Shown: positions 41,063-51,148 of the stretch, piece after piece | Layout of the letters: each line of letters starts with the position of its first letter | Numbering within the stretch: the first letter of the stretch is position 1 | Assembly (NCBI GenBank): GCA_020847435.1 | Contig: JADLBX010000035.1 | Span: 1 to 64,000 of the forward strand | Direction: 5' to 3' | Source of the DNA: Anaerolineales bacterium | GTDB lineage: Bacteria; Chloroflexota; Anaerolineae; Anaerolineales; Villigracilaceae | DNA length: 64,000 nucleotides | Position numbers and translations under genes: made by a program | The notes under the pieces: model-generated | The model's input: only the letters and a program-made list of their open reading frames with translations | Database searches by the model: none | Told to the model about the DNA's origin: nothing

Positions 41063-41092
41063 AACCGCATCCACTTGGATGCGGTTTTTTTA
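41063..41092 (+). terminator. Intrinsic terminator of recX-rny
   Basis: AACCGCATCC pairs with GGATGCGGTT around ACTT, followed by a run of T. Confidence 0.9.
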
Positions 41093-41421
41093 TCGAGTCG
41101 GCGCTGTGCAATCCATCCGATACATCTTGTGTATTTCAACTTCATTATTAAACAGGCTCTTCTCAATCTTGTAAGAATCTCCCAAAACAAACGGATGTGT
41201 AAAGCATCATTACAGGATGTTCATATAAAATTTTCCGCGTAGACAGGAGCTACCGACGCGGGTTTTTTGATCGCTATGCCAACCGACCCGATTGGTCGCT
41301 CGTTTGGGAGTGACGCATCGAGCATGGGATCAATCCCTGCCGCCTCAACGATATATGATTACGCCTGACTTGAATCAGGTTGCGTCAAATGAAGACTAAA
41401 AGATTTTTCAAAGGAGCTAAT
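41093..41421. other. Leader region before the sensory operon
   Basis: No gene is seen. A second terminator-like hairpin lies at 41238-41268 (CCGCGT...ACGCGG followed by GTTTTTT), just after a TATAAAAT sequence. A small stem CCTGACTT/AATCAGG lies near 41368-41386. The hairpin could attenuate transcription into the operon, or terminate an unseen short RNA. Confidence 0.45.
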
Positions 41422-42396
41422 ATGTCAGCGAAACGAATTCTCATCCTGTTGTTTGCCTTGAGCCTGATCCTTTCAGGGTGCGGGGGCGCGCCGAATAAAG
41501 AGATGCATACCATCGGTATCATTGTAGAAATACCCTGGCTCTCGCCCGTTGTTGATAACTTCAAAACCACCATGACAGAACTGGGCTATGTGGAGGGAAA
41601 AAATATCACCTACCTGTACGATCCCAACGTGGGACCTGACCAAGCCGCCTTCGACAAGGAAGCCGCACGCTTGATGGAGGCAAACGTGGACCTCTTCTTT
41701 ACGGTCGGCACCATGACCACCAAAGCCGCCAAGAAAGCCACCGAGGGAACCGACATCCCGGTGGTGTTCACCCCGGTGATTAACCCGGTGGCAGAAGGCG
41801 TGGTGGAAAGCATTGCCCAACCGGGCGGTAACGTGACCGGCGTCCAAATTGTGGACCACTCTGCCAAAGCCCTCGAGTGGGCGCTGAAGATCGCCCCGGA
41901 TACCAAGTATGTTTATATTCCCTACAACCCGGACGACACCATCACCATGCTGATTATGCAAGGCGTACTCGAAGCCATACCGAGTCTGGGAGTCGAGCTC
42001 CTGCCCAGTGAAGTGAAAAGCGTGGATGAAATGCTGGCGGTTGTGAGCGCTTTGCCTGAAGACACGCTCATCTTTGTGGTTTCGCCCATCTCGAGTCTGG
42101 AAACGGGTGTAGAGCAACTAGGTCAGGAGGCGCTGAAATATGGAGTCCCCATCTTCACCTGCAACCGCGAAATAAATACCCCGCCATTTCCGATTTCCAA
42201 CTATACCGTCACCTTCCCTGGGGAAGCCCAGCAAGGAGCGCAAATGGTGGACCGGATTCTCAAAGGCGCCAAACCAGCCGATACGCCGGTGGAAACCGCC
42301 GAATACTATCTTGATGTTGATCTGAAACAAGCGCAGGCTTTTGGGCTTCAAATCCCGGATGAAATTCTAAACCAGGCAAACATCATTGTTCGTTAA
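41422..42396 (+). CDS. DUF534-type ABC substrate-binding lipoprotein without adjacent permease
   Basis: A 324-residue lipoprotein (lipobox LILSGC) of the ABC_sub_bind/DUF534 family: an N-terminal IGIIVEIPWLSPVVDNFKTTM strand-helix, a KNITYLYDPNVGPDQAAF segment, and a PGGNVTGV loop. Relatives bind amino acids such as tryptophan in TrpXYZ transporters, but no permease or ATPase gene is nearby. It is followed, 217 nt later, by a membrane sensor in the same orientation; a sensory role as an external ligand receptor is therefore likely. AAAGGAG fixes the start at MSAKRIL. The ligand is not predictable. Confidence 0.85.
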   Translation: MSAKRILILLFALSLILSGCGGAPNKEMHTIGIIVEIPWLSPVVDNFKTTMTELGYVEGKNITYLYDPNVGPDQAAFDKEAARLMEANVDLFFTVGTMTTKAAKKATEGTDIPVVFTPVINPVAEGVVESIAQPGGNVTGVQIVDHSAKALEWALKIAPDTKYVYIPYNPDDTITMLIMQGVLEAIPSLGVELLPSEVKSVDEMLAVVSALPEDTLIFVVSPISSLETGVEQLGQEALKYGVPIFTCNREINTPPFPISNYTVTFPGEAQQGAQMVDRILKGAKPADTPVETAEYYLDVDLKQAQAFGLQIPDEILNQANIIVR

Positions 42397-42495
42397 TTCC
42401 CGCTGCAACCGGCTGAAGTCTCCAAGGAATTCCGAGGTCTTCTGCACTGCATAAACAGGACAGATGCATTTCAAATGAGTTGAAGGATAGAACGC

Positions 42496-42540
42496 CCCGA
42501 AGGGTTTCTCGAAGACTTTGGTTATACTCCACCCTTCGGG
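42496..42540. repeat. CCCGAAGGG...CCCTTCGGG hairpin between binding protein and sensor
   Basis: Arms of 9 bp, with outer partial pairing GTTGAA/TTTCAAC. It may terminate or attenuate transcription, or stabilise the lipoprotein mRNA. Its form also fits a dispersed repeat. Confidence 0.6.
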
Positions 42541-42613
42541 ACGGTTGTTTCAACTGAAATGAACCGCGCCCAACTCTGACAGACCGAAAAGCGCTGTCAT
42601 CAGGATACAAATC

Positions 42614-44878
42614 ATGAAAAAAAGCTTACTCACCCGGTTGACGATTTATTTCATTGCTCTGGCGCTGCTTCCGCTGTTGCTATTTGGGTTAATTAGCGCA
42701 TCGCAAACCTACAATACCCAAGCCGCGCAAGCCCTGACAGGGCAGAGCGAAGTAGCAAAACGCGTCGCCGAGCAAGTGAACAGCTTTATGCAGTTACGCG
42801 AAAATGAAATGTATTTGCTGGCTGACGCTGGAAATTTGTCGTCTCTGTCGCTTGACCAACAAGAATCCCTGCTTAACGGCTTGTTCGCCAACCAAAGCGT
42901 CTATGAAGAATTGACGTTGACGAACAGCCGCGGCCGGGAAACAATCTATCTCTCCCGCACCAAGATCATCGAAACGAAGGACCTGGTCAGTCGCGCGGGC
43001 TCCGACGAATTCGAACAGCCGAAGAACTCTGGCAAAACATACTATTCATCCGTCTCCTTCGATGAAGCCACCGGTGAGCCTTATATCATCGTTTCCATAC
43101 CTCTGTTCAATTTGCAAAACGGCAATCTTTCAAACGTCTTGATCGCTCGCGTCCACTTCAAATCGGTTTGGAACATCATGGCTCTGGCGGACGCGACTGG
43201 TAACGGCATCGTCTATATGACCGACGCCGATGATTTTGTGGTCGCGCACGCCAATCCATCGGTAGTGTTGCAGAAAAAACGGGCAGTTCTACCCCCGCAG
43301 AATTCCTTCGCCACAGGGTTGGACGGCAACACAGCCGCCATCGCCGTTGAAACGCTGACGCTCAGCGAACAGACTTTTTATATCGTCGCAGAACAGCCCG
43401 CGACCCAAGCGCTGTCGTTGGCGATATCGACCATTGCATTGACCCTGGGTGCCATGCTGGTAGCGATTGTTATCGCCGGCGTGCTCGGCACGTATGCGGC
43501 GCGTCAAATCACCACTCCCATCGGCAAATTGGCGCAGGCGGCATCCCTCATTAGCGAAGGCGATTTCTCTCAAACAGCAGATGTCCAATCCCAGGATGAA
43601 ATCGGCCGTCTGGCGGTTGCCTTCAACAAGATGACCCAGCAATTACGCGATCTCATCGCCAACCTGGAAGCGCGCGTAGCAGTTCGTACCCAAGCGCTTT
43701 CTTCCGTGGCTGAAGTCAGCACGGCGGCGTCCTCCATTTTGGAAACCGATAAACTTCTACAACAGGTGGTGGACCTCGCAAAAGAACGCTTCAATTTCTA
43801 TCATTCCCATATCTATCTATTGAACGAAGCGGGCGATGCGCTGGCGCTTGCCGCAGGTGCAGGCGAACCGGGGCGACAGATGGTCGCGAAAGGGCATGCG
43901 ATCCCTCTCAACCGCGAGCAATCCCTTGTTGCTCGCGCCGCCCGCGAGCGCAGAGGCGTTACTGTCAACGATGTGACCCAAGCGCCGGATTTTCTCCCTA
44001 ATCCTTTACTGCCAGAGACGCGCTCCGAGTTGGCTGTGCCCATGATCGTTGGCGACAAGGTACTCGGCGTTTTCGATGTGCAGTCGGAGGTCGTTGGGCG
44101 TTTCACCGAAGCGGACATCAACGTCCAAACCGCGCTGGCATCGCAAGTCGCGGTTGCCGTGCAGAACGCGCGTCAATACGACCAAACGCAATCTGCGCTG
44201 GCGCAATCGGAAAAATTGTTCCAAGCCAGCCGTCGGTTGACCCAATCCGAAAGTCTGCAAGGTTTGGTTGCTTCCGCTGTTGAGGCGCTGGGTATCACCG
44301 ACATTGACAGAGTAGTTTTAGGAGGCTTGGACTATGGCGCCGCAGGTGAGTTGGAAAGTATGACGATCATCGCCAACTGGTCGAAGAATCCTGATTTACA
44401 AGCGACCGCTGTTGGAACGCATTATCCGCAGGCAGTCCTCAGTAGTATTTCACTCTTTACCAGTTCAAAGCCCCTCTTCTTCAACGATATGTGGAATGAT
44501 GAGCGGGTGGATGAAACGACCAAGGCGCTCGCCAAACGTGTAAATTACCGTATGATCGCGGCCCTACCTCTCTTTTTAGGTTCACGTCAGAATGCGCTTT
44601 TATTATTTGAAGGCGCGCAACCACACGCCTTCACTTCAGATGAGATCCGTTTGTTTAATGCGTTAGCGCCGCAACTCGCCACCGTTCTGGAAAACCGTCG
44701 CCAGTTCGAACGTGCCCAAAAAGAGGCTGCACGTGAAGCGGCTTTGAACCTCATCAACCAGAAGATTCAGAGCGCGACCACTGTGGAAGCGGTGCTTCAA
44801 ATTGCGGCGCGCGAACTGGGTCACGCGTTGGGCGCGCCGATGACGGTTGCCCAATTGAGCGTGAAAGATAAGAATTGA
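42614..44878 (+). CDS. Membrane sensor: dCache-HAMP-GAF-GAF, no kinase domain
   Basis: A 754-residue sensor. TM1 at about 8-28, an extracellular double-Cache-like domain (30-260), TM2 at about 266-290, HAMP (290-342) and two GAF domains (about 370-530 and 545-700). The chain ends soon after an INQKIQSATTVEAVLQIAARELG helix, which in related proteins leads into a further GAF or kinase part, but here the gene stops. The next gene supplies GAF-like repeats and a kinase. It probably senses the ligand, perhaps via the lipoprotein upstream, and signals to the cytosolic kinase. No methyl-accepting region is seen. Confidence 0.88.
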   Translation: MKKSLLTRLTIYFIALALLPLLLFGLISASQTYNTQAAQALTGQSEVAKRVAEQVNSFMQLRENEMYLLADAGNLSSLSLDQQESLLNGLFANQSVYEELTLTNSRGRETIYLSRTKIIETKDLVSRAGSDEFEQPKNSGKTYYSSVSFDEATGEPYIIVSIPLFNLQNGNLSNVLIARVHFKSVWNIMALADATGNGIVYMTDADDFVVAHANPSVVLQKKRAVLPPQNSFATGLDGNTAAIAVETLTLSEQTFYIVAEQPATQALSLAISTIALTLGAMLVAIVIAGVLGTYAARQITTPIGKLAQAASLISEGDFSQTADVQSQDEIGRLAVAFNKMTQQLRDLIANLEARVAVRTQALSSVAEVSTAASSILETDKLLQQVVDLAKERFNFYHSHIYLLNEAGDALALAAGAGEPGRQMVAKGHAIPLNREQSLVARAARERRGVTVNDVTQAPDFLPNPLLPETRSELAVPMIVGDKVLGVFDVQSEVVGRFTEADINVQTALASQVAVAVQNARQYDQTQSALAQSEKLFQASRRLTQSESLQGLVASAVEALGITDIDRVVLGGLDYGAAGELESMTIIANWSKNPDLQATAVGTHYPQAVLSSISLFTSSKPLFFNDMWNDERVDETTKALAKRVNYRMIAALPLFLGSRQNALLLFEGAQPHAFTSDEIRLFNALAPQLATVLENRRQFERAQKEAAREAALNLINQKIQSATTVEAVLQIAARELGHALGAPMTVAQLSVKDKN

Positions 44879-44907
44879 TCTACTCTGCTGACGCAGGAGT
44901 TTGACGG

Positions 44908-46860
44908 ATGCCGCCAACCCAGAATGCCAACAAACGGGTCGAGAAACTTTTTTCCGATATCAAGGATATTACAGATCAGCCTGCGCATGATTCAACGCGC
45001 TTGTTGGATATAGCCGCGCATCAACCTCAGGCGCAAACTCCAGCAGATGGTCAGGAGCGTCAACGCGAGGTCGAAGCCTTGACGGCGCGCATCAATGAGT
45101 TGGAGGCGGCGCTGTCCGAGGCGGAAAAGCGCCGGGCAGCCGAGTCAGGTTCCAGTTCCGGTCTGAGCCGTGTTGAAGAGCCGAAAAAAGACGCAGTTGC
45201 CTCCAGTCCATTGTTGTATGAAAAAGAGCGGGTCGGTTTTGTTTACAGCGACGACAAGTTGACTCCGGTCGAATCGATATCCACAACGCTGCCGCGTTCT
45301 GATAAAGCGCTCTCCACGCCTCTGGTTGCAAGCGGGCAAGTCATCGGCGAAATGCAGATTCATCCAGCGGCGGAACGCGCGATGACCGCCGAGGATGAAA
45401 GCCTGGCGAGCGCCGTGGCGCAACAAGTTTCTTTGCAGATTCAAAACCTGCGCTTGCTGGATGCGGCAGAGCGCGCCCGCGCCGAAGCGTTGGAAGCCAC
45501 GCGTCAATTTACGCATCAAAGTTGGGAATCGTTTTTAGACGGCATCCGCAACAGCGAGCGCATCGGGTTTGCCTACAACCAAAGCGCGGTGACGCCGTTT
45601 ATGGAGCCGTCGCCTGAACAACACGACCATAAAGAAACTGTGCGCGTGCTAGACGAACAGATCGGCGCGTTATTTGTGAAAGCCGACCCCGCCAAACCTT
45701 TGAGCGATGAAGATCGAGCCATGATCAGTTCGGTGGCTTCACAGGTCAGCCAGCAAGTGGAGAATATCCGTCTGCTCGCGGATGCCGCCCGCGCTCGCGC
45801 CGACGCGGAAGCCGCGACCCGGCGCTTGACGCGTGAGAACTGGCAGGCATTTGCCGACCATAACGCAGATCAGGCGCTGGGTTTTATCTATGACTCGAAT
45901 ACGGTTTCGCCGATTGCAGACAACACCCTCGCGGCACACAATGCTTTTGAGCAACCGCTGACGGTTCAAGGCGAAGCGATCGGTGAATTGAAGGTCATCG
46001 GGTTGCCAAATATTTCACCCGCGCAAAAGGAACTGGCGGCTTCCATCGCCGCGCAAACCAGTATTCATCTCGAAACGCTGCGGTTGAACGAAGAACTGCA
46101 AAAGCGCGCGCTGGAATTGCAGGAACTGGACCGCCTCAAGACCGCGTTTCTCGCGAACATGTCGCATGAGCTGCGTACGCCGTTGAATTCCATTCTGGGT
46201 TTCACCGATGTGATGCTCGAAGGTCTGGATGGACCGCTCACCGATTACATGGATAACGACCTGCGCCTCGTCCAGAAGAACGGTCAACACCTCTTGCACC
46301 TCATCAACGACGTGCTCGATATGGCAAAGATCGAATCCGGGCGCATGAACCTGCACCCCGAGAAATTCAAAGTGCACGAGCTTTTTGCCGAAGTCTTGAG
46401 CATCACCTCCACACTGGCGAACGAAAAGGATGCCGCGCTCTGCATCGCAGAGGATTCCGACAGCGAAGTGCAAATCTTTGCCGATAGCGCCCGCATCCGT
46501 CAGGTGATGATCAACCTGGTCAGCAACGCCATCAAATTCACACCGAACGGAAAGGTCGCGCTGCGCGTCGTCAGGCTGGATGGCGCGCGGGCGCTGGTCA
46601 CGGTCAAAGACAGCGGTCTCGGAATTCCAGCCGATCATCTGGAGGCGATCTTCCAGGAATTTACGCAAGTGGATACAACCACCACCCGCAAAGCGGGCGG
46701 CACGGGCTTGGGTCTGCCGATCAGCCGCCGCCTGGTCGAAATGCACGGCGGACGATTGTGGGCTGAAAGCGCCGGCATCGAAGGCGAGGGTTCCACTTTC
46801 TTTGTGGAGTTGCCTCTTGAAGCCCGCATCACCGACGTGGTGGAAAAACAGGAAAAATAA
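44908..46860 (+). CDS. Soluble histidine kinase with three half-GAF repeats
   Basis: A 650-residue cytosolic kinase. An N-terminal coiled coil is followed by three tandem copies of a roughly 100-residue GAF-like unit (about 95-190, 200-295 and 305-395), each with GF.Y / V.P / V.G..IGE.. / SVA.QVS..(I/E)NLRLL. Then come HisKA with phospho-acceptor His420 (MSHELRTPLNSIL) and HATPase_c (N-box Asn536/Asn540, G1 DSGLGI, G2 GTGLGLP). All catalytic motifs are intact. It has no membrane segment and follows the sensor by 29 nt with AGGAG, so the two are likely partners in a split kinase. Phosphotransfer is expected to the receivers encoded downstream. Confidence 0.92.
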   Translation: MPPTQNANKRVEKLFSDIKDITDQPAHDSTRLLDIAAHQPQAQTPADGQERQREVEALTARINELEAALSEAEKRRAAESGSSSGLSRVEEPKKDAVASSPLLYEKERVGFVYSDDKLTPVESISTTLPRSDKALSTPLVASGQVIGEMQIHPAAERAMTAEDESLASAVAQQVSLQIQNLRLLDAAERARAEALEATRQFTHQSWESFLDGIRNSERIGFAYNQSAVTPFMEPSPEQHDHKETVRVLDEQIGALFVKADPAKPLSDEDRAMISSVASQVSQQVENIRLLADAARARADAEAATRRLTRENWQAFADHNADQALGFIYDSNTVSPIADNTLAAHNAFEQPLTVQGEAIGELKVIGLPNISPAQKELAASIAAQTSIHLETLRLNEELQKRALELQELDRLKTAFLANMSHELRTPLNSILGFTDVMLEGLDGPLTDYMDNDLRLVQKNGQHLLHLINDVLDMAKIESGRMNLHPEKFKVHELFAEVLSITSTLANEKDAALCIAEDSDSEVQIFADSARIRQVMINLVSNAIKFTPNGKVALRVVRLDGARALVTVKDSGLGIPADHLEAIFQEFTQVDTTTTRKAGGTGLGLPISRRLVEMHGGRLWAESAGIEGEGSTFFVELPLEARITDVVEKQEK

Positions 46861-48525
46861 ATGTCAACGCCCAAATATTTGGAATGTAACCTCTGCGGAC
46901 ATCAACAACCCTACGAACCGTTCATTCCCGCGGTTTGCAATCAATGCGAATCACAATGGTTCGAAGCGCGCTACGATTATGATGCGTTCAAGCGTGAGAT
47001 TCTGCGCGGGCTTCCAAACCGCCCCTCCAACATGTGGCGTTATCAGGATATCCTGCCGCTGAACAACGCCGCCGCCCTCGACCTTTATCCCGCTGGCGGA
47101 ACGCCTCTCTGGCTTTCACACCGCTTCGCCCCGGACCTTGGGCATGGTTCCGTTTTCATCAAGGATGAACGCTACGGACCGACCTCCTCCTTCAAAGACC
47201 GCCAGGCGGCTGGAGCCGTCGCGGCGATGCTCGAAAACGGGATCAAAGAAGCGGTCATCGCCTCCACCGGCAATGCCGCAGTGGCGTATGCCGCGGCGTG
47301 CGCGCGTGCGGGTATCAAGCTGTGGGTCTTTATGACCAGCCTCGTGCCGCAGGAAAAACTGCGCGAAGCCGCCTTGTTCGGCGCGGAGGTCATCCGCGTC
47401 AGCGGCAACTACGACCAGACCAAACAGATCGCCGCGCAATTCGCCCAACGCCGCAACCTTCTGCTCGACCGCGGCGCCGCGTCCATCCCTGCGCGTGAAG
47501 CGATGAAAACCATCGCGTATGAGATCGTCGAGCAAATGGGCTGGCACGCGCCCGATTGGTACATCCAAGCGGTCAGCGGCGGGTTGGGTCCGCTGGGGGT
47601 CTATTCCGGCTTCAAAGAATTATTCGACATGGGGTTGATCAATAAGATTCCCAAACTGGCGATCATTCAAGCCGCCGGTTGTGCGCCGATGGTGAACGCC
47701 TTCAAGGCGGGCAAGGATGTAGCGGATGCCATCATCCCTGAGACCAGTATCATCATCCTATCCACCGGCGACCCGGGGAAGATGTATACGTATCTCTGGA
47801 AGCTGACCCAACAATTTGGCGGCGTGATGGAATCCGTGACCGACGCCGAAGCCTTTAACGCCATGCGCAACCTCGCCAAAAGCGAGGGCATGGCTGTCGA
47901 GCCGGCGACAGCCGTCGCCTTCGCGGGAACCGAGAAACTCATCCGCAATGGGACGATCAAAGCGGACGAGAAAGTCGTGGTCAACTGCACCGGTCACACT
48001 TTCCCGGTTGAGAAGCATGTGCTCGGCGATCAATGGGCGGTGGACGTCCACCTCAGCAAAGACCAGTCCCCTGCTCCGCGCGAAGGGTTGCTAGCCGCGC
48101 TCGAAAATCTGGACGAAAAAACCACGACGGTTTTGCTGGTTGACGATAATTCAGACGATGCGTTGCTAATCCGCCGCCTGCTGGAGGGACGCAAAGCCTA
48201 TCGCGTCTATCACGCCAAAGACGGCTGGGAAGGTCTCGCCATGGCGCGGCAGAAACTGCCAGACTTGATCGTCTCTGACTTGACCATGCCCGGGATGGAC
48301 GGCTTCGGACTGGTGGAGGAACTCAAACTCGACCCGCGCACGAAAAATATCCCGGTGGTCGTGGTCAGCGCCAAGGATATTACCGAGGCAGAGCGAAAAC
48401 GCCTGAACGGGCATATCCAGGCAGTCTACCAAAAAGGTTCCTTGCCCACGCGAAAATTCGTAGACCAGATGATCCATGTGATCGAGGAATCCGGCGATGT
48501 GCAAGAACGAGAGCATGTAGCATGA
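46861..48525 (+). CDS. Threonine synthase-like PLP enzyme fused to a receiver domain
   Basis: A 554-residue fusion. Residues 5-32 form a zinc-ribbon-like Cys4 site (Cys9, Cys12, Cys26, Cys29). Residues 55-395 form a fold-type II PLP enzyme like threonine synthase, with Schiff-base Lys112 in SSFKDR and an STGNAA phosphate loop. After a 25-residue linker, residues 421-545 form a full receiver domain: Asp428/Asp429, phospho-acceptor Asp473 (VSDLTMPGMDG), Ser503 and Lys525. The frame is continuous with no sign of error. It starts directly after the kinase stop and overlaps the next receiver by 4 nt. Phosphorylation may control catalysis. The substrate is unproven. Confidence 0.9.
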   Translation: MSTPKYLECNLCGHQQPYEPFIPAVCNQCESQWFEARYDYDAFKREILRGLPNRPSNMWRYQDILPLNNAAALDLYPAGGTPLWLSHRFAPDLGHGSVFIKDERYGPTSSFKDRQAAGAVAAMLENGIKEAVIASTGNAAVAYAAACARAGIKLWVFMTSLVPQEKLREAALFGAEVIRVSGNYDQTKQIAAQFAQRRNLLLDRGAASIPAREAMKTIAYEIVEQMGWHAPDWYIQAVSGGLGPLGVYSGFKELFDMGLINKIPKLAIIQAAGCAPMVNAFKAGKDVADAIIPETSIIILSTGDPGKMYTYLWKLTQQFGGVMESVTDAEAFNAMRNLAKSEGMAVEPATAVAFAGTEKLIRNGTIKADEKVVVNCTGHTFPVEKHVLGDQWAVDVHLSKDQSPAPREGLLAALENLDEKTTTVLLVDDNSDDALLIRRLLEGRKAYRVYHAKDGWEGLAMARQKLPDLIVSDLTMPGMDGFGLVEELKLDPRTKNIPVVVVSAKDITEAERKRLNGHIQAVYQKGSLPTRKFVDQMIHVIEESGDVQEREHVA

Positions 48526-48899
48526 AACCAACCATCTTATGTATCGAAGATCACCCCGATAACCTGACATTAATTCGACGCATTTTTCGATCTGAGCGGT
48601 ATAATTTACTGGAAGCAAACAACGGACGGCAAGGAATATCCCTTGCCGAGAGCAACGACACCGACCTTGTTCTGCTGGATATTAACCTGCCGGATATTGA
48701 CGGTTACGAAGTAGCCAGCCGGTTACGAACCAGCGCCAAGACCGCTCTTGCTCAAATACCGATCATTGCCGTTACAGCCAACGCGATGAAAGGCGATCAT
48801 CAAAAGGCGCTGGAAGTCGGCTGTACAAAATACCTCGCCAAACCAATTAACATTCAGGAACTGATGGATACCGTAGACGATCTGATTGGAGCGGCATAA
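48522..48899 (+). CDS. Single-domain response regulator A
   Basis: A 125-residue receiver with no output domain: Glu9/Asp10, phospho-acceptor Asp53 (LLDINLPDIDG), Thr85 (AVTANAMKG) and Lys107 (LAKPIN). CheY-like or relay function is likely. Its ATG overlaps the stop of the PLP-receiver fusion by 4 nt, so translation is coupled. It is closely related to the next receiver. Being output-less, it may compete for phosphate or pass it on. Confidence 0.95.
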   Translation: MKPTILCIEDHPDNLTLIRRIFRSERYNLLEANNGRQGISLAESNDTDLVLLDINLPDIDGYEVASRLRTSAKTALAQIPIIAVTANAMKGDHQKALEVGCTKYLAKPINIQELMDTVDDLIGAA

Positions 48900-48913
48900 A
48901 AAGGTACTAACGC

Positions 48914-49291
48914 ATGACGCATACCGTTTTATACATTGAAGACAACCCGGATAATACAATGCTGGTGCGCAGGGCGCTGGAAGCGCGAGGGTACAGGGTT
49001 CTGGATGCGTCGACCGGCAACAAAGGGGTGGAACTGGCAGAAACTGAAGCTGTGGACCTGATCCTGCTCGACATTAACCTGCCCGATATTGATGGATACG
49101 AGGTGGCGCGCCGCTTGCGCTCCAGCGCCAAGCGTGAACTTGCCAAAGCTCCGATCATCGCCGTAACCGCCAACGCGCTCAAAGGAGACGCCGAAAAAGC
49201 GCTCGAAGCCGGTTGCGATGTGTACATGTCCAAACCGATCAACCTCCGCGAACTGTGGGCGCGCGTGGAAGCGTTCATCCCGACGCCGTAG
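48914..49291 (+). CDS. Single-domain response regulator B
   Basis: A 125-residue receiver, a paralogue of its neighbour with identical layout: Glu9/Asp10, Asp53 (LLDINLPDIDG), Thr85 (AVTANALKG), Lys107 (MSKPIN). No output domain. It begins 14 nt after receiver A and ends 11 nt before the second PLP enzyme. The pair probably arose by tandem duplication; both keep all phosphorylation residues, so both are likely functional. Confidence 0.95.
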   Translation: MTHTVLYIEDNPDNTMLVRRALEARGYRVLDASTGNKGVELAETEAVDLILLDINLPDIDGYEVARRLRSSAKRELAKAPIIAVTANALKGDAEKALEAGCDVYMSKPINLRELWARVEAFIPTP

Positions 49292-49302
49292 TCGTCATAT
49301 CA

Positions 49303-50478
49303 ATGACACCCTCCTATTTATCACATCTACAATGCTCCGGATGCGCCAAGGAATATTCCCCGGCAGAAATTCACACCTTCTGTTCGGAATGTCAATCGCC
49401 GCTGCTTTCCATCTATAACCTCGAACAAGCGCGCCAACACGTAGACCGGGATCAAATTTCCAGGCGCCGAAAAGGCATGTGGCGTTGGTCGGAAACGCTT
49501 CCAGTATTTGAACCGGAAAACCAAGTCTTTCTCGGCGAGGGCGATACGCCGTTGCTGCTCCTCTCCACCCTGCAAAAGACGCTCGGGCTCGAGAACTTAT
49601 TCGTAAAAGACGAAAGCAGTAATCCCACCGGGTCGTTCAAAGCGCGAGGGCTCGCTGCGGCAGTGTCCAAAGCCAAAGAGTTGGGCGTGGATAAAGTGAT
49701 CATCCCGACCGCCGGCAACGCAGGCGGCGCGATGGCGGCGTACGCCGCGCGCGCGGGGTTGAAGGCTCTGATCTTCATGCCCAAAGATACGCCGTTTGCC
49801 AATATCGAAGAAAGCCGCATGGCTGGAGCCGAAGTAATCCTTGTGGACGGTTTGATCAGCGACGCGGCCGGCATGGCAGGCATCAAAGCGCGTGAAGAGG
49901 GTTGGTTCGATCTTTCCACGTTCAAAGAGCCGTATCGCGTAGAAGGCAAAAAGATCATGGGGTACGAATTAGCGGAGGCATTCGGCTGGACATTGCCGGA
50001 TGTGATCGTCTACCCCACCGGCGGTGGGACGGGGTTGGTGGGCATGTGGAAGGCGTTCGACGAACTTGAAAAATTAGGCTGGCTCGAAAACACAAAACGT
50101 CCCCGCATGGTTTCCGTTCAGGCTGAAGGGTGCGCCCCGGTGGTGAAAGCGTTCAACAACGGCGTTTCATTCTGCGATTTTTGGACGGGCGCGCACACCA
50201 TCGCATCGGGCTTGCGCGTGCCGAAAAGTTTTGCGGACCATCTTATTTTGCAGGATATTTACGACAGCCAGGGGACCGCCATCGCCGTCAGCGACGAAGC
50301 GATTCTTGAATCGCAGGGACAGCTGGCGCGTGCCGAGGGAATCTTCGCCGCCCCCGAAGGCGCGGCAACCCTCGCCGCGCTGAAAGAGTTGATCTCGCAG
50401 GGTTGGATTCAGAAAGAAGAAAAAATCGTTTTATTCAACACAGGGTCGGGATTGAAATATTTGGATTACAAAGGTTAA
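49303..50478 (+). CDS. Threonine synthase-like PLP enzyme
   Basis: A 391-residue fold-type II PLP enzyme with an N-terminal zinc ribbon (Cys11, Cys14, Cys27, Cys30), Schiff-base Lys113 in PTGSFKARG, phosphate loop TAGNAGG and a GGGTGLVG segment. The layout matches threonine synthase, which converts O-phosphohomoserine to threonine, although the SFKAR form also occurs in other members of the group. It shares the zinc-ribbon/PLP layout of the fusion two genes upstream but lacks a receiver. The ATG 11 nt after receiver B is preferred; a longer frame would overlap that gene. No Shine-Dalgarno sequence, so translational coupling is likely. Confidence 0.85.
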   Translation: MTPSYLSHLQCSGCAKEYSPAEIHTFCSECQSPLLSIYNLEQARQHVDRDQISRRRKGMWRWSETLPVFEPENQVFLGEGDTPLLLLSTLQKTLGLENLFVKDESSNPTGSFKARGLAAAVSKAKELGVDKVIIPTAGNAGGAMAAYAARAGLKALIFMPKDTPFANIEESRMAGAEVILVDGLISDAAGMAGIKAREEGWFDLSTFKEPYRVEGKKIMGYELAEAFGWTLPDVIVYPTGGGTGLVGMWKAFDELEKLGWLENTKRPRMVSVQAEGCAPVVKAFNNGVSFCDFWTGAHTIASGLRVPKSFADHLILQDIYDSQGTAIAVSDEAILESQGQLARAEGIFAAPEGAATLAALKELISQGWIQKEEKIVLFNTGSGLKYLDYKG

Positions 50479-50509: not shown

Positions 50510-51148
50510 TCATCCCCCACTCGCAAACGGATTACTCCGCTTCTCCTCCCCCACCGTCGTTTCAGGTCCGTGACCAGAAAGCAAGCGCGTGTTGTCGGGC
50601 AGTGTGAAGATTTGCTCGCGGATGCTTTTTTCGAGGGCGTTCCAATCTCCGCCGGGGAGGTCGGTGCGGCCGACGGAGCCGTTGAAGATGAGGTCGCCGC
50701 AGAAACAGGTCGAGGCGGCGGAAACGTATAAGACGCAGTGACCAGTTGTATGTCCGGGGGTGAAGCGGATTTCAAATTCCACATCGCCAAGTTTCATTTT
50801 CATCCCGTGAACGAAATCAATCGTCGGTTCGGGACCCGGGTCAATATTGAATCCGAACAACGCGGCTCCGCCGCCCGCGCGCCACATCACATGATCGTTC
50901 GGATGCAACGCCACAAGCGGCAACGGGTTTAGCGCGTCCGCGATCTCCGCCGCGCCGCCGATGTGGTCGAAGTGCGCGTGCGTGTACCACAAGTGACCGA
51001 TGCGCCAGCCGCGTTGCTGCGCGGCTTTCAAAATGACGTGACCATCCCACGCGGGATCGATCACTGCGGCTTCTTTCGTTTCCGAGTCTGCAACGAGGTA
51101 CGCGTTCGTTTGGGCGGGACCGAGCGTGAACGAAACGATCTCAAACAT
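50510..51148 (-). CDS. MBL-fold metallo-hydrolase (glyoxalase II-like)
   Basis: A 212-residue metallo-beta-lactamase-fold enzyme with THAHFDHIGG (His57, His59, Asp61, His62), GHTTGH and CGDLIF metal-binding motifs. The overall form is the glyoxalase II/YcbL-like group that hydrolyses thioesters such as lactoylglutathione or related adducts. Its start overlaps the MFS gene end by 8 nt, making it the last gene of a five-gene minus-strand run. The substrate is not established. Confidence 0.88.
   Translation of the reverse strand: MFEIVSFTLGPAQTNAYLVADSETKEAAVIDPAWDGHVILKAAQQRGWRIGHLWYTHAHFDHIGGAAEIADALNPLPLVALHPNDHVMWRAGGGAALFGFNIDPGPEPTIDFVHGMKMKLGDVEFEIRFTPGHTTGHCVLYVSAASTCFCGDLIFNGSVGRTDLPGGDWNALEKSIREQIFTLPDNTRLLSGHGPETTVGEEKRSNPFASGG

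Follow-up and report, generated by a model that had tools for sequence, protein, structure and literature searches.

A receiver-bearing PLP enzyme as the probable output of a two-component pathway in an Anaerolineales bacterium

The 64,000-nucleotide stretch analyzed here (the window; positions 1 to 64,000 of contig JADLBX010000035.1 from the Anaerolineales bacterium assembly GCA_020847435.1) carries seven co-directional genes on the + strand at positions 41,422–50,478, as defined by the open reading frame (ORF) list and Pfam. In order, they encode a PF04392 substrate-binding lipoprotein, a dCache-HAMP-GAF-GAF sensor, a GAF-HisKA-HATPase histidine kinase, a pyridoxal phosphate (PLP)-dependent enzyme fused to a receiver domain (PALP-REC), two single-domain receivers (REC1 and REC2) and a second PLP enzyme (gene 7). 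Their coordinates are collected in Table 1. The ATG starts of the first and last genes were chosen by us; the ORF list also offers earlier TTG starts at 41,380 and 49,213. An original prediction, made from the DNA letters alone, had proposed these seven genes and their domains, each of which was confirmed by Pfam. Its description of the spacing as short gaps or overlaps holds from the sensor onward, where the successive gaps are 29, 0, −4, 14 and 11 bp and the start of REC1 overlaps the stop of PALP-REC by 4 bp, but not for the binding protein and the sensor, which lie 217 bp apart. As had also been proposed, Pfam detected no DNA-binding domain in the seven proteins at an E-value of 0.001.

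Table 1 Features of the seven-gene locus and its upstream flank, in window coordinates
Feature	Position	Strand	Basis
Terminator-like stem-loop with T-run, 3′ of RNase Y	41063..41086	+	Pattern scan, 10 pairs then T-run
Substrate-binding lipoprotein, PF04392 (ABC_sub_bind)	41422..42396	+	Pfam 3.3e-34
Membrane sensor, dCache-HAMP-GAF-GAF	42614..44878	+	Pfam and hydropathy
Soluble histidine kinase, GAF-like repeats, HisKA and HATPase_c	44908..46860	+	Pfam, motifs, repeats
PALP-REC, 554 aa: four-cysteine N-terminus, fold-type II PLP enzyme, C-terminal receiver	46861..48525	+	Pfam
PLP-enzyme domain of PALP-REC, residues 78–378	47092..47994	+	Pfam PALP range
Receiver domain of PALP-REC, about residues 421–544	48121..48492	+	Pfam Response_reg residues 424–515; conservation
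Single-domain receiver REC1	48522..48899	+	Pfam; synteny
Single-domain receiver REC2	48914..49291	+	Pfam; synteny
Second PLP enzyme (gene 7), threonine-synthase-like, PRK08197 type, receiver absent	49303..50478	+	NCBIfam, Pfam

PALP-REC matches Pfam PALP at 1e-69 and Response_reg at 9.3e-17, and its four-cysteine N-terminus is zinc-ribbon-like. K112 is the predicted Schiff-base lysine, and D473 is the predicted phospho-acceptor of the receiver, accompanied by D428, D429, S503 and K525. In an alignment of 100 rows (the window protein and 99 unique relatives), K112, the STGN loop, the SGGxGP loop and the four N-terminal cysteines are conserved in 99 rows, the odd row having a gap. The receiver positions D428 (Glu in six rows), D429, D473, Ser or Thr at 503, and K525 are conserved in all 100. 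Of 152 PALP-REC ORFs, the 111 unique ones that were examined comprise 61 of type A (the window protein and copies from a likely Herpetosiphon among them), 33 of type B (about 555 aa) and 17 of type C (about 710 aa; Pfam showed a second receiver in all four that were checked); K112, S135 to N138 and K166 are present in 111/111 rows. Judged by these residues, both the PLP half and the receiver half of PALP-REC look functional. Three marks of an enzyme-output response regulator are present, namely the receiver residues, the catalytic residues and a kinase in the same locus.

Neighboring genes were classed by BLAST against a small set of reference proteins, using ORFs from a simple caller and Pfam spot checks; upstream counts are confined to loci flanked by 0.9 kb or more. 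The kinase is the adjacent upstream gene, on the same strand, in 58/58 type-A, 27/33 type-B and 12/17 type-C loci, and the type-A gaps between kinase and PALP-REC run from −23 to +49 bp. Because this adjacency recurs in every type-A locus with enough flank, it is not due to chance. Directly downstream of PALP-REC lies a single receiver in 46/56 type-A and 12/17 type-C loci, and two more type-C neighbors are small receivers that were classed otherwise; in type B the adjacent gene is an EamA transporter (20/32) or a receiver-kinase protein (6/32). Where at least 2.5 kb of downstream DNA was available, the 45 type-A loci included 40 with a single receiver, 17 with a second PLP enzyme and 9 with a GNAT acetyltransferase; EamA was found in 14 of 23 type-B loci, and a receiver and GNAT in 6 and 1, respectively, of 8 type-C loci. 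The conserved unit is thus the kinase, PALP-REC and a single receiver, which is smaller than seven genes. REC2 is the more widely conserved of the two downstream receivers; REC1, like the full seven-gene composition, was seen only in close relatives (e.g., L104). The seven-gene set was accordingly dropped as a conserved unit, and the synteny expected in related genomes was borne out for the kinase and PALP-REC but not for the whole set.

Two explanations that would deny the receiver or the cluster a signaling role fit these data poorly. It is scarcely credible that the seven genes are neighbors without a common function: the 217-bp gap and the variation of the binding-protein family and second PLP enzyme among relatives would suit that explanation, but the trio of kinase, PALP-REC and receiver is kept in different genera and also outside the class, with the type-A kinase spacing given above. 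The idea that the receiver is purely structural and never phosphorylated draws on some PLP decarboxylases of another fold, which have a receiver-derived wing, a receiver-like domain at the N-terminus (described in the accessible part of PMC8503589). We considered this second explanation and set it aside as very unlikely, given the conservation of the key receiver positions (100/100 rows) and the kinase neighbor of all 58 type-A loci.

The findings favor, with a probability of about two in three, a two-component pathway that has a metabolic enzyme as its output, in which PALP-REC would be the response regulator and its PLP enzyme would be switched by phosphorylation. Direct control by phosphorylation, as originally proposed, is the simplest reading because the kinase and PALP-REC form a conserved pair, their key residues are intact and no gene for a DNA-binding protein occurs among the seven. 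What follows on the signaling steps, on how phosphorylation affects activity and on the chemistry is our inference. The binding lipoprotein would hand an external ligand to the dCache-HAMP-GAF membrane sensor, which would pass the signal to the soluble GAF-histidine kinase via GAF contacts. The kinase would then phosphorylate the C-terminal receiver of PALP-REC, and this would make the fold-type II PLP enzyme joined to it either more or less active. REC2, plus REC1 in the window, would share or buffer the phosphate. The substrate is probably an amino acid that bears a leaving group and could be a phospho-amino acid (one other than O-phosphohomoserine); the product would be handled further by optional partners: the threonine-synthase-like enzyme or GNAT in type A, and the EamA transporter in type B.

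Several observations weigh against this model. By the ORF caller, 6/33 type-B and 5/17 type-C loci lack a kinase directly upstream, and the type-B kinases checked with Pfam, those of loci L038 and L159, are hybrids that contain receivers themselves, so that the phosphate route there may differ. Covariation between kinase and receiver does not stand out from that between kinase and PLP domain: the receiver accounts for 20%, 28%, 31% and 31.5% of the top 20, 50, 100 and 200 covarying pairs, respectively, with 25.7% expected, in a set of 79 non-redundant pairs, equivalent to about 34 effective sequences, in which the separation of type A from types B and C predominates. In addition, at least 19/45 type-A loci have neither a second PLP enzyme nor GNAT downstream. 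This last count would also suit a pathway in which the PLP domain is a metabolite-sensing module: by binding an amino acid from inside the cell it would modulate how readily the receiver is phosphorylated or loses its phosphate, the output being REC2 or a DNA-binding regulator elsewhere. The single receivers found beside PALP-REC in the majority of loci of types A and C, and an OmpR-like regulator near one type-A cluster, are in keeping with such a role. We nevertheless regard it as unlikely, since the lysine, the carboxylate loop and the PLP-phosphate loop are invariant in the rows examined, which exceeds the needs of a sensor, and since the partner genes often encode an EamA transporter (type B) or a second PLP enzyme or GNAT (type A).

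The OmpR-like regulator, which has a Trans_reg_C domain, belongs to a same-strand group of genes ahead of the binding protein in locus L096 (2696-7950; genome G016), together with a kinase-like ORF and a receiver-GAF-kinase hybrid. Because this regulator precedes the cluster, gene control may coexist with enzyme control. The original claim of direct enzyme control stands as the simplest reading but is too strong if it is taken to rule out gene control beside it.

The identity of the enzyme was approached through threonine synthase (ThrC). The solved structures nearest to PALP-REC are threonine synthases, which were also the top matches of a fold search with a predicted PALP-REC structure; that prediction, built from 34 close sequences, had a mean predicted local distance difference test (pLDDT) score of 66.3 and was used for the fold search only. 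PALP-REC nonetheless falls below every listed threonine-synthase cut-off, reaching 241.3 vs 303 bits for PRK08197 and 167.0 vs 167.1 bits for TIGR00260, the latter a miss by 0.1 bit. We take K116, N154, S155 and R160 of Thermus ThrC to be its contacts to the substrate phosphate; K116 and R160 were located in our alignment with the solved structure. The position of K116 is a lysine in 111/111 PALP-REC rows. The N154 position differs from row to row (Arg, Met, Lys and other residues). The S155 position is Gly (G205) in 111/111 rows, with D203 ahead of it in almost every row, and the R160 column is occupied by Ala, Ser or Gly in almost all rows. In the column after R160, Arg occurs in 58/61 type-A rows, Lys in 17/17 type-C rows, and Val and Arg in 16 and 6, respectively, of the 33 type-B rows. 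As a whole, the contact set of Thermus ThrC is not reproduced in PALP-REC.

An ordinary threonine synthase placed under two-component control would account for the nearest structures, the near miss of TIGR00260, the invariant K116-position lysine and the type-A arginine beside the R160 column. We dropped this candidate as quite unlikely, because all listed cut-offs are missed, the other contacts are changed and the genome encodes a separate, clear ThrC on contig C12 (TIGR00260, 290.1 vs 167.1 bits). The existence of that ThrC suggests that PALP-REC is probably not a threonine synthase; taken with the scores and the altered phosphate contacts, it leads us to expect a different amino-acid substrate for PALP-REC. 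Caution is warranted in naming proteins of this type threonine synthases by similarity alone.

Gene 7 presents the converse case. It matches Pfam PALP at 1.8e-74 and passes the threonine-synthase cut-offs (PRK08197, 580.8 vs 303 bits; TIGR00260, 184.1 vs 167.1 bits), but Asn replaces the K116-position lysine and TAGN replaces STGN, which makes the threonine-synthase label of this gene doubtful. That gene 7 is the only ThrC of the genome was considered and dropped. The original prediction had counted this second PLP enzyme among the pathway outputs; without a receiver and present in 17/45 type-A loci, it is instead an optional partner outside the conserved core. Among the other partners, GNAT acetyltransferases of about 285–303 aa stand beside PALP-REC in loci of types A and C (L041:6677-7534, L148:2538-3449 and L087:6797-7675), and GNAT relatives also occur in some other type-C loci and, upstream of the kinase, in the likely Herpetosiphon loci.

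On the input side, the lipoprotein has a single, N-terminal hydrophobic segment by hydropathy. PF04392 is the former DUF534; the model for the tryptophan-binding protein TrpX, NF041285, gives the lipoprotein 99 bits, below its cut-off of 390. The sensor contains dCache_1, HAMP and two GAF stretches by Pfam, with HisKA and HATPase absent, and its dCache part is flanked by two hydrophobic segments. Kinase-less sensors of this kind (HAMP or dCache, plus GAF) occur in one to several copies. The binding protein ahead of the sensors, typed for part of the type-A loci, belongs to four families: PF04392 in the window, L047 and L123 (Pfam) and L104 (similarity); phosphonate-binding PF12974 in L041 (Pfam), L105 and L108 (similarity), of which L105 apparently comes from the same genome as L041; NMT1/THI5 PF09084 in L101, L103, L116, L117, L127 and L143; and Peripla_BP_6 in L097. 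The input module is thus exchangeable between loci, and the earlier claim of an amino acid-like ligand proved too strong, because relatives have in this place an NMT1/THI5, a phosphonate-binding or a Peripla_BP_6 protein.

The kinase has no hydrophobic segment by hydropathy and contains all of the H-, N-, G- and F-box motifs. Its N-terminal half holds three weak tandem GAF-like repeats (window positions 45,208–46,122) that are mutually 28–35% identical; only the first matches Pfam GAF, across part of the profile. In a likely Herpetosiphon locus, dCache, HAMP, GAF, PAS, GAF, HisKA and HATPase are joined in one protein of 1,877 aa, which is followed by PALP-REC and REC2. This fusion speaks for the sensor and kinase working as one unit in the window, where they are separate proteins.

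At the edges of the locus, the stem-loop 3′ of RNase Y is likely the upstream boundary of the cluster; the scanned region held 12 terminator-like sites against a shuffle mean of 13.2, that is, no excess. Downstream, a metallo-hydrolase gene assigned by Pfam lies on the − strand at 50,510–51,148.

PALP-REC is widespread. A match at an E-value of 1e-60 or better was found in 35/41 genomes (the source genome and 40 relatives), and a match at 1e-80 in 145/396 genomes drawn evenly from the class, some of the latter matches being partial. On re-examination of six genomes from the class draw, the best match was partial in G143, G170 and G345 and split in two in G286 and G123. Many further type-B and type-C matches of this draw lie outside the 111 proteins described above. 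In a draw from the phylum, 42/400 genomes matched; 7 of these are outside the class, 6 of them from one genus, likely Herpetosiphon. A GTDB genome scan returned 43 Chloroflexota loci, 42 of which yielded a PALP-REC ORF with the simple ORF caller (L144 gave none), and one short receiver match in Bacillus. No full-length relative was found at 1e-70 among 299 genomes from the phylum to which the Bacillus locus belongs, a set without a known positive, and none of the 834 matching plasmid records had 80% query coverage. The searches covered Chloroflexota, the phylum of the Bacillus locus and plasmids, and a confinement to Chloroflexota is not implied.

A tree was built from 65 PALP-REC and 10 non-fused rows with a quick method that gave long-branch warnings; two L004 ORFs, two outgroup rows and one fragment were excluded, two non-fused sequences were added, and the intended outgroup locus L177 contributed no row. 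All fused proteins fall on one side of a single branch with support 100, so the fusion likely arose once. Type A forms one clade; a single label change interrupts each of types B and C.

The source genome has a second PALP-REC, 48% identical to the first, on contig C10. Its locus (L038:2291-14175) encodes a dCache/GAF sensor, a ParA/MinD-like ATPase, a GAF/PAS hybrid kinase with two receivers, PALP-REC and an EamA transporter, and is adjoined by a glutamate racemase gene. The ATPase gene (L038:5132-5917) sits between the sensor and hybrid kinase of this type-B locus, and several relatives have ORFs of similar length (about 260 aa) at the same position. Two further arrangements were seen elsewhere: an ORF of 1,695 aa precedes PALP-REC-REC in L084 (8138-13225), about 1,000 aa of it without a Pfam match, and may be a spurious extension; and a receiver fused to a guanylate/adenylate cyclase domain lies directly upstream of a type-C PALP-REC in L094 (9600-10661).

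If the phosphorylation model is correct, an outside signal would control a PLP enzyme directly, with no transcription factor in the cluster, and this arrangement would have been retained across many genera while the binding proteins at its front were swapped. PALP-REC would then represent a large response-regulator family with enzyme activity as the readout, and the likely Herpetosiphon copy would permit tests in a cultivated organism. A more speculative extension, which we consider decidedly improbable, is that PALP-REC makes a small exported signal of amino-acid type, with production set by kinases with exchangeable sensors, export by EamA in type B and reading by the binding proteins of sister loci. 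Were this true, Chloroflexota would possess a self-tuning loop of chemical communication or response in which the signal synthase itself is the response regulator.

PALP-REC shares with threonine synthase (thrC) the fold, the catalytic lysine, the STGN loop and the nearest solved structures, but differs in its fused receiver, its scores below the cut-offs and its altered substrate-phosphate positions, in a genome that has its own ThrC. The Lqs system of Legionella, which signals with alpha-hydroxyketones, likewise brings kinases, a response regulator and a PLP-dependent synthase together in one pathway; the Lqs synthase stands apart as a protein of its own and makes the signal, whereas here the enzyme itself carries the receiver. 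The winged AAT-fold ornithine, lysine and arginine decarboxylases have a receiver-derived N-terminal domain, according to the accessible part of PMC8503589, and so resemble PALP-REC in combining a PLP enzyme with a receiver-derived domain; unlike them, PALP-REC has another, threonine-synthase-like PLP fold and a C-terminal receiver, and the main text of that paper does not contain the string ‘phosphorylat’. The word ‘pyridoxal’ is likewise absent from the main text of reviews on pseudo-receivers and two-component systems (PMC12632262, PMC12471899). Our literature search, which took in few subscription journals and none of the earlier censuses of response-regulator outputs cited in PMC5847659, found no description of a fold-type II PLP enzyme with a receiver. 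The original statement that no system of this composition has been described agrees with that result but overlooks a known class: bacteria, and likewise archaea, have receivers joined to standard metabolic enzymes, with narrow spread, as set out in the accessible part of PMC5847659. PALP-REC resembles those enzyme-output response regulators in pairing a receiver with a metabolic enzyme under predicted environmental control. It departs from the cases given there, which include no PLP enzyme in the part available, also by its presence in many genera of the Anaerolineae and in genomes outside that class. To the enzyme-output response regulators, PALP-REC probably adds a new variant.

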